DNA of 64,000 bases from Flavobacterium zhairuonense (GTDB taxonomy: Bacteria; Bacteroidota; Bacteroidia; Flavobacteriales; Flavobacteriaceae). Both the position numbers and the translations under genes were made by a program. Positions 14,384 through 37,200 of this stretch are shown piece by piece (within the stretch, counting starts at the first letter, position 1; each line of letters opens with the position of its first letter). The stretch spans positions 62,001 through 126,000 of the forward strand of contig NZ_SJSY01000065.1 of the NCBI RefSeq assembly GCF_004352915.1, read 5' to 3'. Under the pieces are notes generated by a model, which was given only the letters and a program-made list of their open reading frames with translations, did no database searches and was not told the DNA's origin.

Positions 14384-15421
<1,038 letters not shown>

Positions 15422-15480
15422 CTAATTTAAAAGTCTAATTTCCTCACAATAAACTTTCTTTCCTTTTAAACTTTTATTTA

Positions 15481-16467
15481 TTAGGTCGACATAATGTCAG
15501 ACACTCTTAATAATTCTCTATCAATTTCTGATTTTCCTTTAATTGCTTGTTCAAGCGGCGTCAAAACTACTTTGTCCTCTTTAAGACCAACCATATAGTT
15601 TGATTTACCTTCTAATAAAGATTCTACAGCCTTTACACCTAAACGACTCGCCAAAACACGGTCAAAACAAGATGGAGAACCACCACGCTGCATGTGTCCT
15701 AAAACAGAAACTCTTACGTCATACTCAGGCAAATTAGCTTCAACGTAATCTTTTAATTCGAATACATTTTTACCAATTTTATCACCCTCAGCAATAACAA
15801 CTATACTTGATGATTTTCCTGAAGCTTTACTTTTTTGAAGAGAGTCCAACAATCTGTCTAGACCTAAATCTTCTTCAGGAATAAGGATTTCTTCAGCACC
15901 TGCTCCAATACCAGCATTAAGAGCAATATGCCCAGCATCTCTACCCATAACCTCTACAAAAAACAGACGGTTGTGCGAGCTTGCTGTATCTCTGATTTTA
16001 TCTATAGAATCTACAACTGTATTTAAAGCTGTATCATAGCCTAAAGTATGGCTAGTCCCATAAATATCATTATCAATTGTACCTGGAATTCCAATTACTG
16101 GAAAATCGTACTCTGAATTAAAAATCAAACCTCCAGTAAAACTTCCATCTCCACCGATAACCACTAGAGCATCAACTCCAGCTTTTACAAGGTTTTCGTG
16201 AGCTTTTTTTCTACCTTCCGGTGTTCTAAAGTCAACAGAACGAGCCGATTTCAAGATCGTTCCTCCTTTATTTACAATATTGTTTACGCTTCGAGGGCCC
16301 ATTTCTTTAAAATCACCTTCGATCATTCCTTGATACCCTCTATAAATTCCTATGCATTCTATATTATGATAAGCGCATGTTCGAACAACTGATCGTATTG
16401 CAGCATTCATTCCTGGCGAGTCTCCTCCTGAGGTAAGAACACCAACTTTTTTTATTGTTTTTGGCAT
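15481..16467 (-). CDS. pfkA: ATP-dependent 6-phosphofructokinase
   Basis: Phosphorylates fructose 6-phosphate to the 1,6-bisphosphate. 328 residues, with GVLTSGGDSPGMNAAIRSVVR (ATP site), VIGGDGSFTGG, the catalytic GTIDNDI, and EVMGRDAGHIALNAG. The ATP-type residues GGDG are present, pointing to ATP rather than pyrophosphate as donor. First gene of the pfkA-gap-kinase-mgsA set. Confidence 0.97.
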   Translation of the reverse strand: MPKTIKKVGVLTSGGDSPGMNAAIRSVVRTCAYHNIECIGIYRGYQGMIEGDFKEMGPRSVNNIVNKGGTILKSARSVDFRTPEGRKKAHENLVKAGVDALVVIGGDGSFTGGLIFNSEYDFPVIGIPGTIDNDIYGTSHTLGYDTALNTVVDSIDKIRDTASSHNRLFFVEVMGRDAGHIALNAGIGAGAEEILIPEEDLGLDRLLDSLQKSKASGKSSSIVVIAEGDKIGKNVFELKDYVEANLPEYDVRVSVLGHMQRGGSPSCFDRVLASRLGVKAVESLLEGKSNYMVGLKEDKVVLTPLEQAIKGKSEIDRELLRVSDIMST

Positions 16468-16775
16468 TATTTAAGTATTAAGTTGTAAAATTAGCAAACA
16501 TTCGGCACTTTTCAGGCTATGTTTATCATAAATTAATAAAATATGTTAAATTCAAACGTTTTCGTTAATAAGTTTTTTGATACCAAAAAATTCATTTAAA
16601 ATAATAAAAGGCACTTATTTTAATTAAATCCTTAAAATTAACAATACATTAATGAAGTGTTACAAAATTGCGAAAGTGCACTTTGTTCAAAAAAACATTT
16701 AAACCTCTAAATTTAAGCATAAAAAAAACCATTACGCGAATAATGGTTTATAATTTGATTTTATTTAACAATCTG
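16468..16775. other. Intergenic region between tamB and pfkA (308 bp)
   Basis: It contains the tamB terminator near 16721-16749 and the pfkA upstream region. On the minus strand TAATTTTA, near 16480-16495, is one base off the -7 consensus TAnnTTTG. Nothing coding is supported. Confidence 0.5.
16721..16749 (-). terminator. Terminator downstream of tamB
   Basis: Stem AAACCATTA (16726-16734) with TAATGGTTT (16741-16749) around a 6-base loop. On the minus strand it is followed by eight T, and it lies 27 bp after the tamB stop codon. Confidence 0.8.
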
Positions 16776-19700
16776 TTAAAAATCGTCGTTATCAGGAATC
16801 AGACCTTGATTGTTATATACAGGTGGTGGTTTTTTCTCTTCTTCCTTTTTCTCAGGTTTCTTTTTATTTTTTTCAGCATCCTTTTTATTGGTAAAATTGA
16901 TGTAATCCGGATTTAAATACGAATCTTGCACATCATCCGTTGATCCTTTTTTAATAGTACGCTCCAATTTATGGCTCTTAAACAATTTATTAACCAATTC
17001 GCTGAACGTATCAAAATCAACCTCATACGAAATACCAACACCTTGCGTATAACCAATTCCTTGTCCTATATAATTAATGTCGTTTTCTTTATTAAACAAT
17101 CTGAGGTTCATTGAGCCATCTTCATTAACGCGATAAAGGATTTCAATATCTCCAACAATAGCCGATTCGTTCACTCCTCCTACCGGCACTCCGACTTTTC
17201 CATTGATAGATATCTTTTCGTTAATCTGCGATGAAATATTGGCTACAAACTGCCCATCAGCTTCTTGCCCGATTCGCTTGTCTGCAGAAATAAAATTCAG
17301 ATCGATATTTACTTTATCATTATCTGATTTGATTATACCTCCTAACAAACTTGCCGCAGTCTCTGCAAATGTTCCCGACAAATCACTTTGATTAAATCCA
17401 TCAGGACTCATGAACGAGCCTGTTGAAAGCAAATACAATGCTTGTGTTTGGCGAACATCTTTATCATCTAACTTATATTGTATCTCCGACTTTAAAACAC
17501 TGCTCACAGACGGAAATTGAATATCAAAATTAGGATCTGGACTTGTCAAATCTCCTCTTAAGCCAATAACAACCTCTACAGGAACTTTTTTATTAAAAGA
17601 AGAATTCTCCAATAATACCGCAGGATTTGCCGATGTTCTATAAACAGCTTCCAGATTAAGTTGCGCTTTCATTGGGTTTCCTTCCCAAATAATAGAGCCA
17701 CCTTTTTTAACCGCAAATTTTTTATCGATTAAACCTCCATATTTAAAATTATAAGTTCCTTCATATGCCTGGAAATCTCCCCACATATTAAACTTGCCAA
17801 GCGTATTGATTTTAAATAATAAAGATCCGTATCCTTTTCCTTTCATACCGTGACCCGAATTTCTGTCCAAGATTACTTCAACTTCGGCATCTGGCGTAAT
17901 ATCAAAATCAAACTCTAATTCAAGACCGTTGTAATTTCTTGTTTTTTCGACTATACCATTGGCCAAATTGTATTTTTCTTTTGGTGTAACAAAATGAATC
18001 CAGCTGCTTTCACCAACACTTTGTGCATTGCTTATCGGAATTTTAATTTCTGTTCCTTTTTCAGATTTTGCATCTACCTTAATAAATAATCCTTCTGTAG
18101 GACCTTTGATACTTGCTGTTCCGTTTATAAATGCAGTTCCAAAATATGCCGCATCTTCACTGTCCTTGGTATCAAGTGCCAATAATCGTTTTGAAGTCAC
18201 TGTAAGATCCAATTTCCAGTTTCCAAAATTATGATGCTCAATCGTTCCATTCAGCAATCCTTTTGTTTTGTATTTGGTATCTGTTAATTGATTATTTCTA
18301 AACAAAAATTTCTCGTCTGTCAAATCAATTACGGTTCGATCACTTAGCTCATAATCTGTATTTAGGTACGGAATTGTCATTCCAGCTTTTTCAACATAAA
18401 GCCTTCCATTGATTTCTGGTTTTTTCAAATTCCCAACAACTGCAGCATTTCCAGAAACAGATCCGCGAACATTCGAAATTACTTCACCGCCAACTGGTCC
18501 TAAAGTAGCCAAATTAAATCCTTCCATTTTCAAATTCAGATCTAAAAATGTTTCTTTGTTTTCAATCGCAAAAGTTCCGCTCGCTTTAAATGATTCAGTA
18601 AAACCATTTTGAATCGATGAGTTTACCGTGAATTTCCTAAAACTCTCATCTCCCGAAATATCAAAATTCAATGTTCCCAACTCGGTTTTATTCATATTAA
18701 GATGATCGATCTTAATCGAAGCTGTAGGTTGGTAAACATTTTTATTCTGCTTGTAGTTTACCTTTCCGTTCAAATTTCCATTGAAAACAAACTTGGAATT
18801 ATAAGGGGTAATCTTATTGATGTCAACATCTTCAAAATTGAGGACGAGATCTTTATAGTCTGTTCCTTTAATCACGCCATTTAAATCAATTTTCTGGCCT
18901 TCATGAGATAAAACAATATTATCAAAATTGAAGTTTTTAAAATGCTGATCAATAATGATCTGATTGTCTTTTTCTGATTTTTCGTTTAAATACCATATAT
19001 AGTCTTTAAATTTCATTTCAGATTTCTTGATCCCGACAATGTTGTTTTTGTTTTTATCTATTGTATGAAACAAATCGAGATTGAAGTAATCTTCTCCCTT
19101 ATCACCACCTTTAAATTCTGAACGTACATACAGCGTATCTTTTGCAGTAACATTAATTAAATTGAAGTCGCGTATTTTATAATATGGCGTTTTTATACTA
19201 TCTAACTCAACATAAGCATTATAAAGCGCATTTTTATTATCAATATTGATTCGGATGTTGTCAAAAGTGTTTTTGTCCAGCTTGATCTTTTGCGATTTGA
19301 ATCTGAATTTGAATTCTTGCAAATCGGCATCAATTTTACCACGCATAACCGTGGAAGAATCAATGTTAATTTCCGGATAAAGCATTTCCACAACTTTATC
19401 ATATACATGAAAATTAAAACGCAAAAACTGTCCTTTTCCAACCTTATAAGGTTTATAATTGGTATACAAACTTCCTACTGAATTCATTACCAATTTATCC
19501 AATTGATCAAAGCGGAATTTCCCAACAATTTGCCCGTTTACAACATCTGTCGAATTTACCGCAATTGTTCTAAGTCTATCAGCATCAAAACTAGAATTGA
19601 TAGTCAGATCATCAAAAGCATAGGTGTTTTTCGGGTTTTTATATACCGCATCTTTAATGAAAATATTTCCTTGAAGATTCTCAATAGAATTTCCAGAAAC

Positions 19701-33307: not shown

Positions 33308-34108
33308 ATGAAAAATTCAATTCTAATTGTCACTTTATTACTGACAACCTTGTTCTTTCAGACAAATTGTAGTGCTCAAAAATCAAAAAAGACAAGATTC
33401 AAGGCTCTAGTTTTATATGAAAATGGCGGACATCATTTGGCTTTTACTAAAGCAGCAAAACCTTGGCTGAACAAACTAGCAATTGACAGCAGTTTTACAA
33501 TTGATTATATTGAAAACACAAAAACGATAAGTGAGAAACTTTTAAAACAATATCAAGTCTTTATACAGCTTGATTATCCGCCTTACACTTGGAGCGAAGA
33601 ATCGATGCAAGCGTTTCAGAAATACATGAATAATGGGAAAGGTGGCTGGGTTGGCTTGCATCATGCAACTTTGCTTGGCGAATTTGACGGTTATCCAATG
33701 TGGAAATGGTTTTCTGATTTTATGGGCGGAATAAAATTTGTCAATTACATTCCGGATTTTGCCAATGGAAAAGTAACTATTGAAGACAAATCGCATCCTG
33801 TCACAAAAGGAGTTCCAACTGATTTTCTCATCAAAAAGGAAGAATGGTACATTTATGACAAAAGCCCAAGACAGAATGTTCACGTACTCGCCTCAGTTGA
33901 CGAATCGACTTATGATCCCGATTCAAAAATAAAAATGGGCGATCATCCTGTAGTTTGGACCAATGATCATTTTGCTTCACGAAACGTTTATATTTTTATG
34001 GGGCATGCGCCAGAATTATTCCAAAACGAAGCTTACACTACACTATTGCGGAATTCTATTTTCTGGGCGGCTCAAAAAAATAATTTTTCTGTTAGAACAA
34101 AAAAATAA
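33308..34108 (+). CDS. ThuA domain-containing protein
   Basis: Exported ThuA-fold protein (glutamine-amidotransferase-like) of 266 residues; signal peptide ends near SAQ. Motifs: ALVLYENGGHHLAFTKAAKPW, GWVGLHHATLLGEFDGYPMW, DKSHPVTKGVP and YIFMGHAPELFQNEAYTTLLRNSIFW. ThuA proteins take part in sugar metabolism (trehalose, others) and often neighbour glycoside hydrolases, as here. The stop codon abuts the stop of the convergent fusion gene. Confidence 0.9.
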   Translation: MKNSILIVTLLLTTLFFQTNCSAQKSKKTRFKALVLYENGGHHLAFTKAAKPWLNKLAIDSSFTIDYIENTKTISEKLLKQYQVFIQLDYPPYTWSEESMQAFQKYMNNGKGGWVGLHHATLLGEFDGYPMWKWFSDFMGGIKFVNYIPDFANGKVTIEDKSHPVTKGVPTDFLIKKEEWYIYDKSPRQNVHVLASVDESTYDPDSKIKMGDHPVVWTNDHFASRNVYIFMGHAPELFQNEAYTTLLRNSIFWAAQKNNFSVRTKK

Positions 34109-36385
34109 TTATTCTATTTTCAATGCATACCAACCAAATGTTCGTAATTTAATTTTAAAAAAAGAATCAGTTATAATTTCATCTACTTTTTTCCAAGCTT
34201 CTTCCATATATGCTTCAGCTTCTTTACGAGACTCATCAATAGCGCCACAATCTTCCAATAAAACAATCACAGATTTTATTATCTCAAAATCAGTTGGCAT
34301 AGTCTCCAAGATTTTCCAAACATATTCCCGTTTATCCAAAGGCAATAAACGCATTGCTTTTGCGACTGGCATAGTTATTTTTCCAGCTGTAATATCCTCA
34401 CCTTTATCTTTAAGATTGTTTTCATACCCTTCCAAATTGAGTACATCATCCATTATTTGATAAGCAACTCCAATGGCTTCAAAAAAACTACCCAATGCAT
34501 TTATTTCCGTATCGTTTCCTCCTCCAATCATAGCTCCCATTTTTGCTAATGTGCATGCTGGCGCAGCAGTTTTTAATCGGTGAATTGTATAAATTCTTTC
34601 CTCGAGCAAATAACTTTCTCCCTTGTCTACAGCTTCAGGCATAAAAGAATGAAGGCCACTTATATCCATGGCTTGACCCGCATGTGCAACACGCATCATT
34701 TCAAAATACATCTCATATACCTTTAAGCGGGTTTGATCTGTAAGCCTAGGTGAATAAGTGAACAATTCACCTATAAAATAACATATATTTCCTGCATTAA
34801 TCGCAAGTGGTTCACCATATAAATGATGGAGCGCAACTCCTCCTCTTCGTGTATCAGACCTATCTTGAACATCATCAACAATTAATGATCCTGTATGGAT
34901 AAGTTCTGGCATAGCCAGCCAGTCAATAAATGGTTGAGAGTTTCCACCAACAACATCCATACAAGCTAGAAAAACGTAAGAACGCCACGCCTTTTTACTC
35001 CTATCCACTACTTCTCTTATAGGCTTAATTACAGACAACACATATTGCTCTTTATCTTGAGAAGTAAAAAACCCAACTCCCAAAGGGCTATAAACCAACC
35101 TATGAAACTGATCATCAGTAGGATTTAAAGGCAGAAGAGATTCTATAGATTTTTGTGTCGCCTTACCAATACCTTTTAAAAAGCTTTCAATATTATCATT
35201 GGTATTAAATCCATTTCTCCCAATGTAGCCGTGACCAGAAACCTGAACCCCTCCAAAACTCCCCTCAACCTTTACAGATCCTTCCCACAATGCAGGTGGC
35301 GAGAGAATTGTAATAAACTCCTGTTCAGGAAAATTAGCTGTTATAGAAAGATAGATATTCATCTCTGGAATTTCAAATTTCCACAAAACAGGATAGGATA
35401 CAAAAGTTCCGCTACTTGTCCAGTATTTTTCAGGAACAAACACAAAATCTTCTATGCTGTTTTCATTTCCATCTTTGTCAATTACAATTACAGTTCCTCC
35501 TAAAGGTTTTCCACTATCTGTATTATCAAAAAGATTATAAGCCGATATTTGACAATCGTTATCCATTTGCAATGCAGCCCAATTCCATGCAATATCATGT
35601 TTAAATTCTATTTCTGATGTTTCTTCTGCCGAACCACTAAACTCATGATCATACCAGCCACTTCCTTCAACTTCATAAATATCATCTCCTATTTTAATTT
35701 TCCCTTTGGCATTGCATTTTGGAATAAAATAATAAAACATATCTTCTTTTCTGATACCTCTTACCAATCCGTCTTGTCCATGTCTTATCGGTTTTGTTAA
35801 AGGAACAAATTCAATATCACACATAATCTCATCTGATAAATTCTCCAGTTTTAAGTGATAATTATTCTGATCATCTTTTTTAAAAGAGTTTTCATCATAT
35901 TCAAGCAAAAGATTTTTTATCCCAACTTTAGCTGGTTGTTTTAAAAGTTTGTCAGGAAGTGGCAAATTTCCCTTTTCATATATCTCTTTTAAGGCACGGC
36001 GGACTAATTTATTCCCAACATTCTTTTCTTCATTTCTTTTAATGATCTTCAAAATTTCAGTTGGAGTTTCCCTATCTAAAAGAGAGCTTGAATGATATTT
36101 TTTAGTGCTCAAATCGGACAACGACCATATCATTGAATGTGTATGTTTGAAAGCGCCTTGCTTATCTTTTCCGAGTGTCAATCTAAAAAAGGAAGCAAAT
36201 AGAGAAAACTTTTTCCCTTCTTTTGAAACAACATGACAATTAAGGTACCACCATTCTATCACAGAACCATGATGAGGCAAATCGTGTATATTTAAATCAA
36301 TAAATCCTTCGGCAGGCCATGTTGAAGGATAATTTTCTAAAACAACTTTAAAATTCATTCCTTGAGTAGATACTTCTTCTTTCAT
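34109..36385 (-). CDS. Fusion protein: CrtC/AttH-like lipocalin domain plus polyprenyl (geranylgeranyl-type) diphosphate synthase
   Basis: 758 residues without signal peptide. Residues about 25-395 match the CrtC/AttH family (carotenoid 1,2-hydratase and relatives): EWWYLNCHV at 44-52, GSGWYDHEFS at 241-250, WNWAALQMDNDCQISAYNLFD, and VSGHGYIGRNG. Residues about 430-750 form a complete trans-prenyl diphosphate synthase: LIHTGSLIVDDVQDRSDTRRG with the first Asp motif DDVQD (504-508), GEPLAINAGN, GQAMDISG, and the second motif DDVLN (646-650) followed by KGEDITAGKITMP. DDVLNL and DDVQDRSxxRRG resemble type III (eukaryotic-like) GGPP synthases. The natural reading is that the C-terminal half makes a C20-like diphosphate and the N-terminal half hydrates, cyclises or otherwise processes the prenyl chain. 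Coordinates of the junction are near 35185. No carotenoid genes are adjacent. The gene lies beside a tRNA cluster, and both halves are in one intact frame. Confidence 0.87.
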   Translation of the reverse strand: MKEEVSTQGMNFKVVLENYPSTWPAEGFIDLNIHDLPHHGSVIEWWYLNCHVVSKEGKKFSLFASFFRLTLGKDKQGAFKHTHSMIWSLSDLSTKKYHSSSLLDRETPTEILKIIKRNEEKNVGNKLVRRALKEIYEKGNLPLPDKLLKQPAKVGIKNLLLEYDENSFKKDDQNNYHLKLENLSDEIMCDIEFVPLTKPIRHGQDGLVRGIRKEDMFYYFIPKCNAKGKIKIGDDIYEVEGSGWYDHEFSGSAEETSEIEFKHDIAWNWAALQMDNDCQISAYNLFDNTDSGKPLGGTVIVIDKDGNENSIEDFVFVPEKYWTSSGTFVSYPVLWKFEIPEMNIYLSITANFPEQEFITILSPPALWEGSVKVEGSFGGVQVSGHGYIGRNGFNTNDNIESFLKGIGKATQKSIESLLPLNPTDDQFHRLVYSPLGVGFFTSQDKEQYVLSVIKPIREVVDRSKKAWRSYVFLACMDVVGGNSQPFIDWLAMPELIHTGSLIVDDVQDRSDTRRGGVALHHLYGEPLAINAGNICYFIGELFTYSPRLTDQTRLKVYEMYFEMMRVAHAGQAMDISGLHSFMPEAVDKGESYLLEERIYTIHRLKTAAPACTLAKMGAMIGGGNDTEINALGSFFEAIGVAYQIMDDVLNLEGYENNLKDKGEDITAGKITMPVAKAMRLLPLDKREYVWKILETMPTDFEIIKSVIVLLEDCGAIDESRKEAEAYMEEAWKKVDEIITDSFFKIKLRTFGWYALKIE

Positions 36386-36623: not shown

Positions 36624-36630
36624 TCAGAAG

Positions 36631-36704
36631 TGATCTCAGAAGGATTCGAACCTTCGACCTACGCATTAGAAGTGCGTTGCTCTATCCAGCTGAGCTATGA
36701 AACC
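36631..36704 (-). tRNA. tRNA-Arg (anticodon TCT)
   Basis: 74 nt on the minus strand. Acceptor GGTTTCA pairs with TGAGATC (two G-T pairs). D-loop AGCTGGAT, anticodon loop CTTCTAA in a 5-bp stem (ACGCA/TGCGT), and T-arm with GGTTCGAATCC. CCA is not encoded. Confidence 0.93.
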
Positions 36705-36753
36705 ATTATTTTAAAATTTCTGAAGATAGAAATCAAAACTATCTACATAAAAA

Positions 36754-36783
36754 CAAAAAAGCCCTTCAAATGAAGGGCTTTTC
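36754..36783 (-). terminator. Terminator copy after the decayed tRNA
   Basis: Stem AAGCCCTTCA with TGAAGGGCTT plus a run of T on the minus strand. Identical to the hairpin near 36894-36923, as expected from a tandem duplication. Confidence 0.8.
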
Positions 36784-36784
36784 G

Positions 36785-36860
36785 TGAACGCAGAAGGATT
36801 CGAACCTTCGACCGTCCCGATTATAAATCGGGATGCTCTATTCATCTAAGCTATCTTATC
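36785..36860 (-). pseudogene. Degenerate tRNA copy (derived from tRNA-Arg TCT)
   Basis: The 3' half, with T-arm and downstream terminator, is identical to tRNA-Arg 36924-36997. The 5' half has decayed: GATAAGA cannot pair with TGCGTTC, GG of the D-loop is GA, and the anticodon arm is replaced by a 19-nt hairpin with TCCCGAT/ATCGGGA arms and a 5-nt loop. A formal anticodon TAT could be read but the cloverleaf is broken, so I call it a pseudo-tRNA. Confidence 0.8.
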
Positions 36861-36893
36861 TTTTCAATAAATAATTACAAACTACTACAAAAC

Positions 36894-36923
36894 AAAAAAG
36901 CCCTTCAAATGAAGGGCTTTTCG
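36894..36923 (-). terminator. Terminator of tRNA-Arg (36924-36997)
   Basis: Same stem-loop as the one at 36754-36783, directly after the tRNA 3' end on the minus strand. Confidence 0.85.
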
Positions 36924-36997
<74 letters not shown>

Positions 36998-37027
36998 ATT
37001 TCTTTTTAAACTTATGGCAAAGTTTTG

Positions 37028-37102
37028 TCGGGGTGGCAGGATTCGAACCTGCGGCCTCCTGCTCCCAAAGCAGGCGCGATAACCGGGCTACGCTACACCC
37101 CG
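37028..37102 (-). tRNA. tRNA-Pro (anticodon TGG)
   Basis: 75 nt. Acceptor CGGGGTG pairs fully with CACCCCG. Anticodon loop TTTGGGA in stem CCTGC/GCAGG. GGTTCGAATCC T-arm. CCA not encoded. Confidence 0.95.
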
Positions 37103-37116
37103 AGGCAAAATTTAAG

Positions 37117-37200
37117 CGGAGAGACAGGGACTCGAACCCTGGCGACGGTTACCCGTCGACAGATTAGCAATCTGCTCCATTACCGCTCTGGCACCTCTCC
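37117..37200 (-). tRNA. tRNA-Ser (anticodon GCT)
   Basis: 84 nt with the long variable arm typical of serine tRNA (CGACGG/CCGTCG hairpin). Acceptor GGAGAGG with TCTCTCC, anticodon loop TTGCTAA, GGTTCGAGTCC T-arm. It heads the minus-strand tRNA cluster. Confidence 0.95.

Follow-up and report, generated by a model that had tools for sequence, protein, structure and literature searches.

A conserved fusion of a CrtC/AttH-type double lipocalin and a trans-prenyl diphosphate synthase in Flavobacterium and other bacteria: a candidate assembly-line terpenoid enzyme

Enzymes which assemble a prenyl diphosphate and convert it further within a single chain have been described in fungi. In the chimeric terpene synthases of the PaFS type, which unite a prenyltransferase and a terpene synthase (PTTS), the prenyltransferase lies C-terminal to the terpene-converting domain, a class I cyclase, and channelling occurs by proximity; the copalyl diphosphate synthase PvCPS similarly joins a prenyltransferase to a class II cyclase of beta-gamma fold (PMC8190136). 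The chimeric PTTS family is described as fungal only (PMC8307374). Bacterial drimenol synthases, from Aquimarina and others, are bifunctional terpene enzymes thought to be derived from a fusion (PMC9128629), but they combine a HAD-like domain with a terpene synthase beta domain and take preformed farnesyl diphosphate. Here a gene of Flavobacterium zhairuonense is reported, contained in the 64,000-nucleotide stretch analysed (the window), which encodes a CrtC/AttH-type double lipocalin and a trans-prenyl diphosphate synthase as one protein. Its N-terminal half is a lipocalin and not a class I or beta-gamma class II cyclase, which separates it from fungal PTTS enzymes and PvCPS; the fusion would thus be a bacterial counterpart of the self-supplied fungal enzymes, with a different second domain.

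The lipocalin half resembles several described proteins. The carotenoid 1,2-hydratase CrtC of Rubrivivax gelatinosus (RgCrtC), whose target is a terminal isoprene double bond, shares with it a Pfam domain, an aspartate and two tryptophans, but stands alone, serves carotenoids, and has three further active-site residues (His239, Trp241 and Tyr266), of which the first is missing and the others are replaced in the fusion. Kievitone hydratase of Nectria haematococca (PDB 7A0Q and 7A0T) has the same fold, with aligned aspartate and W-x-W, and adds water to the prenyl moiety of an isoflavonoid (PMC5805349); it is, however, a secreted fungal enzyme, with no prenyl synthase fused. AttH NE1406 (PDB 2ICH) is the best match of the N-terminal half, both in sequence and in fold, among solved structures, although it stands alone and is of unknown function. 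The 25-phosphosteroid lyase (PDB 9FZN, 9G4C) shares the fold and works at a tertiary carbon of an isoprenoid side chain, but it eliminates phosphate and is about 10% identical.

The features of the gene are given below, all on the minus strand, by window position.

34109-36385, minus: fusion gene, intact open reading frame of 758 residues (CrtC/AttH-type double lipocalin and trans-prenyl diphosphate synthase)
35636-36259, minus: CrtC N-terminal lipocalin domain, residues 43-250 (PF07143, E 9e-19)
35222-35590, minus: Lipocalin_9 domain, residues 266-388 (PF17186, E 5e-19)
34265-35026, minus: polyprenyl synthetase domain, residues 454-707 (PF00348, E 7e-43)
35027-35221, minus: inter-domain segment, residues 389-453, partly helical (395-417, 424-431) in a low-confidence model
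35648-35650, minus: codon of Asp246, the aligned counterpart of CrtC's catalytic Asp268, with a proposed role as proton donor
35579-35587, minus: Trp267-x-Trp269, aligned with Trp283-x-Trp285 of CrtC; both tryptophans in 53 of 53 fusions
34862-34876, minus: first Asp-rich motif DDVQD, residues 504-508; D504, D505 and D508 in 53 of 53 fusions
34436-34450, minus: second Asp-rich motif DDVLN, residues 646-650; D646 and D647 in 53 of 53 fusions, N650 in 51

The frame is uninterrupted from ATG to stop and coincides exactly with the span 34109-36385. An earlier note, made from the sequence alone, had described a single unbroken frame, without stating its strand, in which a CrtC/AttH-like half precedes a prenyl synthase with catalytic motifs DDVQD and DDVLN, and had guessed the junction near residues 400-430. 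The frame and both motifs were confirmed, the domain identities are supported by Pfam, and the junction could be located at about residues 389-453. All three Pfam matches (PF07143, PF17186 and polyprenyl_synt) exceed the curated cut-offs; the two lipocalin domains score 69.2 bits each, against cut-offs of 22.5 and 26.2, and the protein therefore belongs to the CrtC/AttH-type double lipocalin family. No NCBIfam model reached its cut-off, the best names being generic prenyl synthases, and a PHROGs search gave no match. The G+C content of the gene is 0.348, that of the window 0.344.

Conservation was evaluated on an alignment of 53 full-length fusion copies, the window gene included. In the synthase half, the DDxxD motif, the second DD pair, R468, R513, R514, Q571, D574 and K605 are found in every copy, while K465 is present in 52, and K669 and N650 in 51 each. 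The presence of two Asp-rich motifs together with K465 and R468 assigns this half to the trans-prenyl diphosphate synthase family (PF00348), and the corresponding part of the full-length model (residues 395-758) matches the fold of Rv0562 with a Z score of 24.6. We take the lysine and arginine positions to form the site for isopentenyl diphosphate (IPP), and the Asp-rich motifs to have their usual role. At positions -5 and -4 before the first Asp motif the residues are G (52/53) and S (50/53), neither of them bulky; these positions are presumably tied to chain length, and the prenyl product is, at a guess, C20. The likeness to type III geranylgeranyl diphosphate synthases, put forward in the earlier note, is conjecture to the same degree. 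Classical terpene synthase motifs were also considered. Neither D-x-D-D nor D-x-D-T-T occurs in the window protein; a D-x-D-D pattern falls somewhere within the first 440 residues of 10 of the 53 fusion rows, and these occurrences were judged to be due to chance.

For the lipocalin half, residues were related to RgCrtC by using the CrtC of Roseobacter litoralis as a bridge, in which the H-W-Y-D-W-W spacing (0, 2, 27, 29, 44, 46) is identical to that of RgCrtC. Asp246 aligns with Asp268 of RgCrtC and is an aspartate in 52 of the 53 fusions; Trp267 and Trp269, invariant as listed above, align with Trp283 and Trp285. In CrtC, substitutions of Trp110, Trp283, Trp285 or Asp268 lower or abolish activity, Trp283 and Trp285 stabilise the carbocation, and free terpenoids are converted to different extents (geranylgeraniol 4%, farnesol 17%, homofarnesol 78%; PMC12402844), so that short prenyl substrates are reasonable for a site of this type. 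Kievitone hydratase matches the profile with an E value of 2.5e-9. The fusion was not classed as a CrtC, since His239-x-Trp241 and Tyr266 are missing.

Structural comparison places the N-terminal half next to AttH and a set of enzymes. When modelled alone (mean predicted local distance difference test score, pLDDT, 66), it matches AttH with a Z score of 18.9 and kievitone hydratase with 17.8, that is, it has their fold; 25-phosphosteroid lyase (15.4), CghA (15.3), and Fsa2, Phm7 and other pericyclases (13.8-14.2) follow, before a drop to an unrelated barrel at 9.0. CghA, Fsa2 and Phm7 are Diels-Alderases, in part according to their entry titles. Enzymes of this fold thus catalyse hydration or lyase reactions at the ends of prenyl or isoprenoid groups, in addition to cycloaddition. 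The full-length model retrieves AttH, kievitone hydratase and prenyl synthases, and lower down the prenyltransferase domain of PvCPS and 25-phosphosteroid lyase; the prenyltransferase Ord1 is also among its matches.

The distribution of the fusion was determined by several searches. With the full-length protein as query, 98 of 100 related genomes gave a match, a figure which includes the prenyl synthase half: the matches listed, own genome aside, are 22-31% identical and all start at residue 405 or later, as expected for ordinary prenyl synthases. The N-terminal half, used alone, matched 11 of 398 Flavobacterium genomes, own genome counted; ten of these carry an open frame of at least 761 residues, and the remaining one (L049) is interrupted near the junction. 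In its own genome the fusion is the sole match to PF07143. A scan of named genomes returned near-full-length matches in five Flavobacterium (65-88% identity) and in three metagenome-assembled genomes (MAGs) of Myxococcota (40-44%). Within the Myxococcota group, the phylum of one such MAG, 74 of 282 genomes were matched in a profile search, about 38 of them strongly (E below 1e-70); 35 of the strong matches lie in frames of more than 740 residues, and three others are fragments, presumed to be cut by contig ends, as confirmed for L130. The weaker matches mostly cover the second half of the profile only, many in frames of 350-500 residues. Among Bacteroidota, the profile matched 69 of 395 genomes. 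Two of the near-full matches are Flavobacterium, and at least four other Bacteroidota carry divergent fusions (25-27% identity, frames of 697-746 residues) which match through profile position 424-426; Pfam was run on three of the four, the copy in L120 is cut by its contig, and further genomes with long frames (G800 and G849 among them) were left out of the count.

Cyanobacteria and actinobacteria were covered through plasmid records only, in which near-full-length fusions were found in Tolypothrix (36.6% identity, two records) and Streptomyces canus (26.6%), annotated in both as 'polyprenyl synthetase family protein'. No relative was found in the viral contigs scanned for the fusion, and the five matches in phage records concern essentially the synthase half, with at most 44% of the query covered. 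The fusion is therefore a multi-phylum family, patchy within Flavobacterium. Some partial matches were noted in the same records. A 649-residue protein of a Nitrosomonas stercoris conjugative plasmid (L149:11392-13341) covers query residues 303-742; its C-terminal half is a prenyl synthase, while its N-terminal part, although partly alignable with the fusion, has no Pfam match. In five further S. canus plasmids (H9-H13, H80-H84) only residues 525-746 of the S. canus protein are matched, always within about 5 kb of the end of the record.

Comparison with the Flavobacterium anhuiense copy, 88% identical at the protein level, gave a ratio of nonsynonymous to synonymous substitution rates (dN/dS) of 0.10 overall, 0.14 for residues 1-405 and 0.09 for residues 445-758; across the junction, residues 391-455, it is 0.07, calculated on about 41 synonymous sites only. 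Such low values, the junction included, indicate that selection acts on the fused frame as a whole. The span from G369 to K465 measures 97 residues in 46 of the 53 copies; of the other seven, three have 98 residues, three have 92 and one has 101. Trees built on the two halves recover the same main clades, with support, for the N- and C-terminal half alike, of 100/100 for Flavobacterium, 99/100 for Tolypothrix with L135 and 99/100 for the divergent Bacteroidota. The alternative of an artefact, either two genes joined by a sequencing error or a recent accidental fusion, finds a point in its favour in the L049 copy, split by a frameshift near the junction, but the fusion is kept in independent assemblies from several phyla and its junction is under selection, so that error or chance joining is ruled out for all practical purposes. 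With full-length homologues in several phyla, the fusion is a real and widespread gene family maintained by selection, rather than an isolated case. As for the frameshifted L049 copy (L049:1-4257), either the gene was lost recently or its assembly contains a sequencing error.

Two relatives of 1509 residues, from Tolypothrix (L147:9655-14184) and from genome G560 of the Myxococcota-group search (L135:7075-11604), carry additional domains, in the order sulfotransferase, GT28/EryCIII-type glycosyltransferase and CrtC-Lipocalin_9-synthase block. Both kinds of transferase need an acceptor group, for example a hydroxyl, and a hydratase would be a source of one. Around the Tolypothrix fusion, DevB is encoded on the opposite strand about 1.3 kb upstream, while the genes for DevC and DevA are found 1 kb downstream (L147:7188-8378, 15184-17207), all above their model cut-offs; an adenylyl-sulfate kinase gene lies on the same plasmid, about 11.5 kb further on. 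The S. canus fusion is adjoined by an ABC transporter pair. A similarly annotated pair accompanies a lone synthase in Streptomyces sp. NBC_01431. RND exporter parts are found near the fusion in L033 and L036, possibly by coincidence.

On these grounds, the reading which we favour, with moderate confidence, is that of a bifunctional assembly-line enzyme, which would make a prenyl diphosphate and then hydrate or cyclise its omega end in an Asp-driven step. The C-terminal domain would condense IPP onto an allylic diphosphate, and the resulting chain would be passed, across the length-conserved connector, to the AttH/CrtC-type domain. There, Asp246 may protonate the terminal (omega) double bond, and aromatic residues (such as Trp46, Trp244, Trp267 and Trp269) may stabilise the tertiary cation, to be quenched by water (hydration) or captured by the chain itself (cyclisation). 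In the relatives fused to sulfotransferase and glycosyltransferase domains, a sugar and a sulfate group would next be added to the hydroxylated product, which in Tolypothrix would leave the cell through the DevBCA-type pump. The sequence of synthesis and hydration or cyclisation had been proposed in the earlier note. It stands as the best-supported reading, given structural neighbours which act on prenyl ends or cyclise; the observations concern the domains, their motifs and folds, the conserved fusion, the additional domains and the adjacent exporter, and every catalytic step, channelling and the product are what we infer. A bolder extension can be entertained only tentatively, and we regard it as somewhat doubtful: the fusions may form a new and non-canonical terpene synthase family of bacteria, relying for a class II-like, proton-initiated hydration or cyclisation on a lipocalin-fold domain that shares one chain with its prenyl synthase. 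In the fullest form, a single chain of 1509 residues would assemble the prenyl unit, hydrate or cyclise it, and attach sugar and sulfate to give a terpenoid which is then exported.

A number of observations weigh against the favoured reading. No counterpart of RgCrtC His239 is found in the aligned fusions, Trp241 aligns with Phe217 and Tyr266 with Trp244, and alanine mutants of His239, Trp241, Tyr266 or Asp268 of CrtC are inactive (PMC4717167); the CrtC substrates reported in the excerpt of PMC12402844 include no diphosphate. The S. canus copy has Glu in place of the Asp. Functionally unassigned proteins of the AttH type (L050, NE1406) likewise carry the Asp and W-x-W, which therefore mark the fold family rather than hydration as such. 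The models are weak, with a mean pLDDT of 60 at full length, a predicted template modelling score (pTM) of 0.60 for the N-terminal half and local confidence below 50 at or just after Asp246. The trees are quick ones with long branches flagged, and S. canus, L133 and L038 are among the rows which shift between halves. Finally, no pathway genes are located beside the window gene. The main rival reading is that the lipocalin half is a non-catalytic carrier, shielding the prenyl product or delivering it to membranes or exporters, with prenyl diphosphate as the only product. The lipocalin-like fold, a weak match to Svf1 (E 0.0013, under the Svf1 cut-off), the absence of His239 and the export genes near some copies (DevBCA in Tolypothrix, the ABC pair in S. 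canus, RND parts in L033 and L036) are all in keeping with it. Yet Asp246 and the W-x-W are near-invariant over the 53 copies, beyond the needs of a generic carrier, the top fold matches are enzymes, AttH excepted, and Tolypothrix and L135 add transferases requiring a hydroxyl acceptor; a carrier is accordingly considered unlikely, but still a serious competitor.

Less probable again is a CrtE-CrtC type carotenoid fusion, in which the C-terminal half makes geranylgeranyl diphosphate for phytoene and the N-terminal half hydrates an acyclic carotenoid end. The relatedness of the N-terminal half to CrtC is in agreement with such a role, and a gene of the phytoene/squalene synthase family (PF00494) was found in all 12 fusion-bearing Flavobacterium genomes tested, one of them with a broken copy. 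The same 12 genomes, however, also encode a protein which matches the lycopene cyclase family PF05834 at full length (E below 1e-47), so that their carotenoids are probably cyclised and acyclic ends are less expected. Both families are broad, since among 14 genomes used as specificity controls PF00494 matched seven and PF05834 ten, including Escherichia coli. In addition, 7 of 18 fusion genomes of the Myxococcota group, MAGs which may be incomplete, lack a PF00494 gene, and no carotenoid gene lies beside the window gene. A carotenoid role is thus unlikely in Flavobacterium. It is possible for the divergent Bacteroidota clade, where a desaturase (L119:10861-12360, L120:2616-4115), above the crtI-family cut-off but under those of CrtD, is encoded two genes from the fusion on the same strand. 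Finally, the C-terminal half could prenylate a non-isoprenoid acceptor, the adduct being cyclised or rearranged by the N-terminal half in the manner of the Diels-Alderases of the same fold. This would suit CghA, Fsa2 and Phm7 as structural neighbours and Ord1 as a match of the full model, but the motifs expected for chain elongation hardly vary among the copies, and no polyketide, peptide or aromatic pathway was seen among those neighbours of the Tolypothrix and S. canus fusions which are annotated, a weak test as the neighbours of most other copies are unannotated; we consider this the least plausible of the functional alternatives, and very improbable.

No published description of the fusion was found among the matches listed in the open-access literature, which is not proof of its absence. 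The fusion may represent an overlooked one-protein route to terpenoids, across several phyla. If its lipocalin half is catalytic, a class of terpenoids would escape genome mining based on the classical folds of terpene synthases, and the enzyme could become a cofactor-free tool for the addition of water to unactivated alkenes.

The neighbours common to the Myxococcota-group loci seem mostly due to local synteny among closely related genomes. One of about 210 residues (L121:7420-8061) is encoded at most two genes from the fusion in each of L121, L123, L130, L134 and L136; neither Pfam nor NCBIfam gave a match for the one member tested. A sulfatase gene (L135:5097-6716) is found 358 bases upstream of the sulfotransferase-bearing gene of L135. 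At the window locus, the fusion gene stands alone beside tRNA genes, without adjacent carotenoid genes, as the earlier note had stated. A convergent gene adjoins it, ending at base 34108. Upstream, at 36630-37200 on the minus strand, there is a cluster of four tRNA genes (Arg, Arg, Pro, Ser). In F. anhuiense (L031) the fusion has the same cluster at a distance of about 3 kb, and in L032 it has one nearby with one tRNA-Arg fewer; none was found in L033-L035. The cluster is taken as a neighbourhood common to the nearest relatives rather than a functional part. The window cluster contains two tRNA-Arg(tct) genes, at 36630-36704 and 36923-36997; two are present in F. anhuiense and one in L032.

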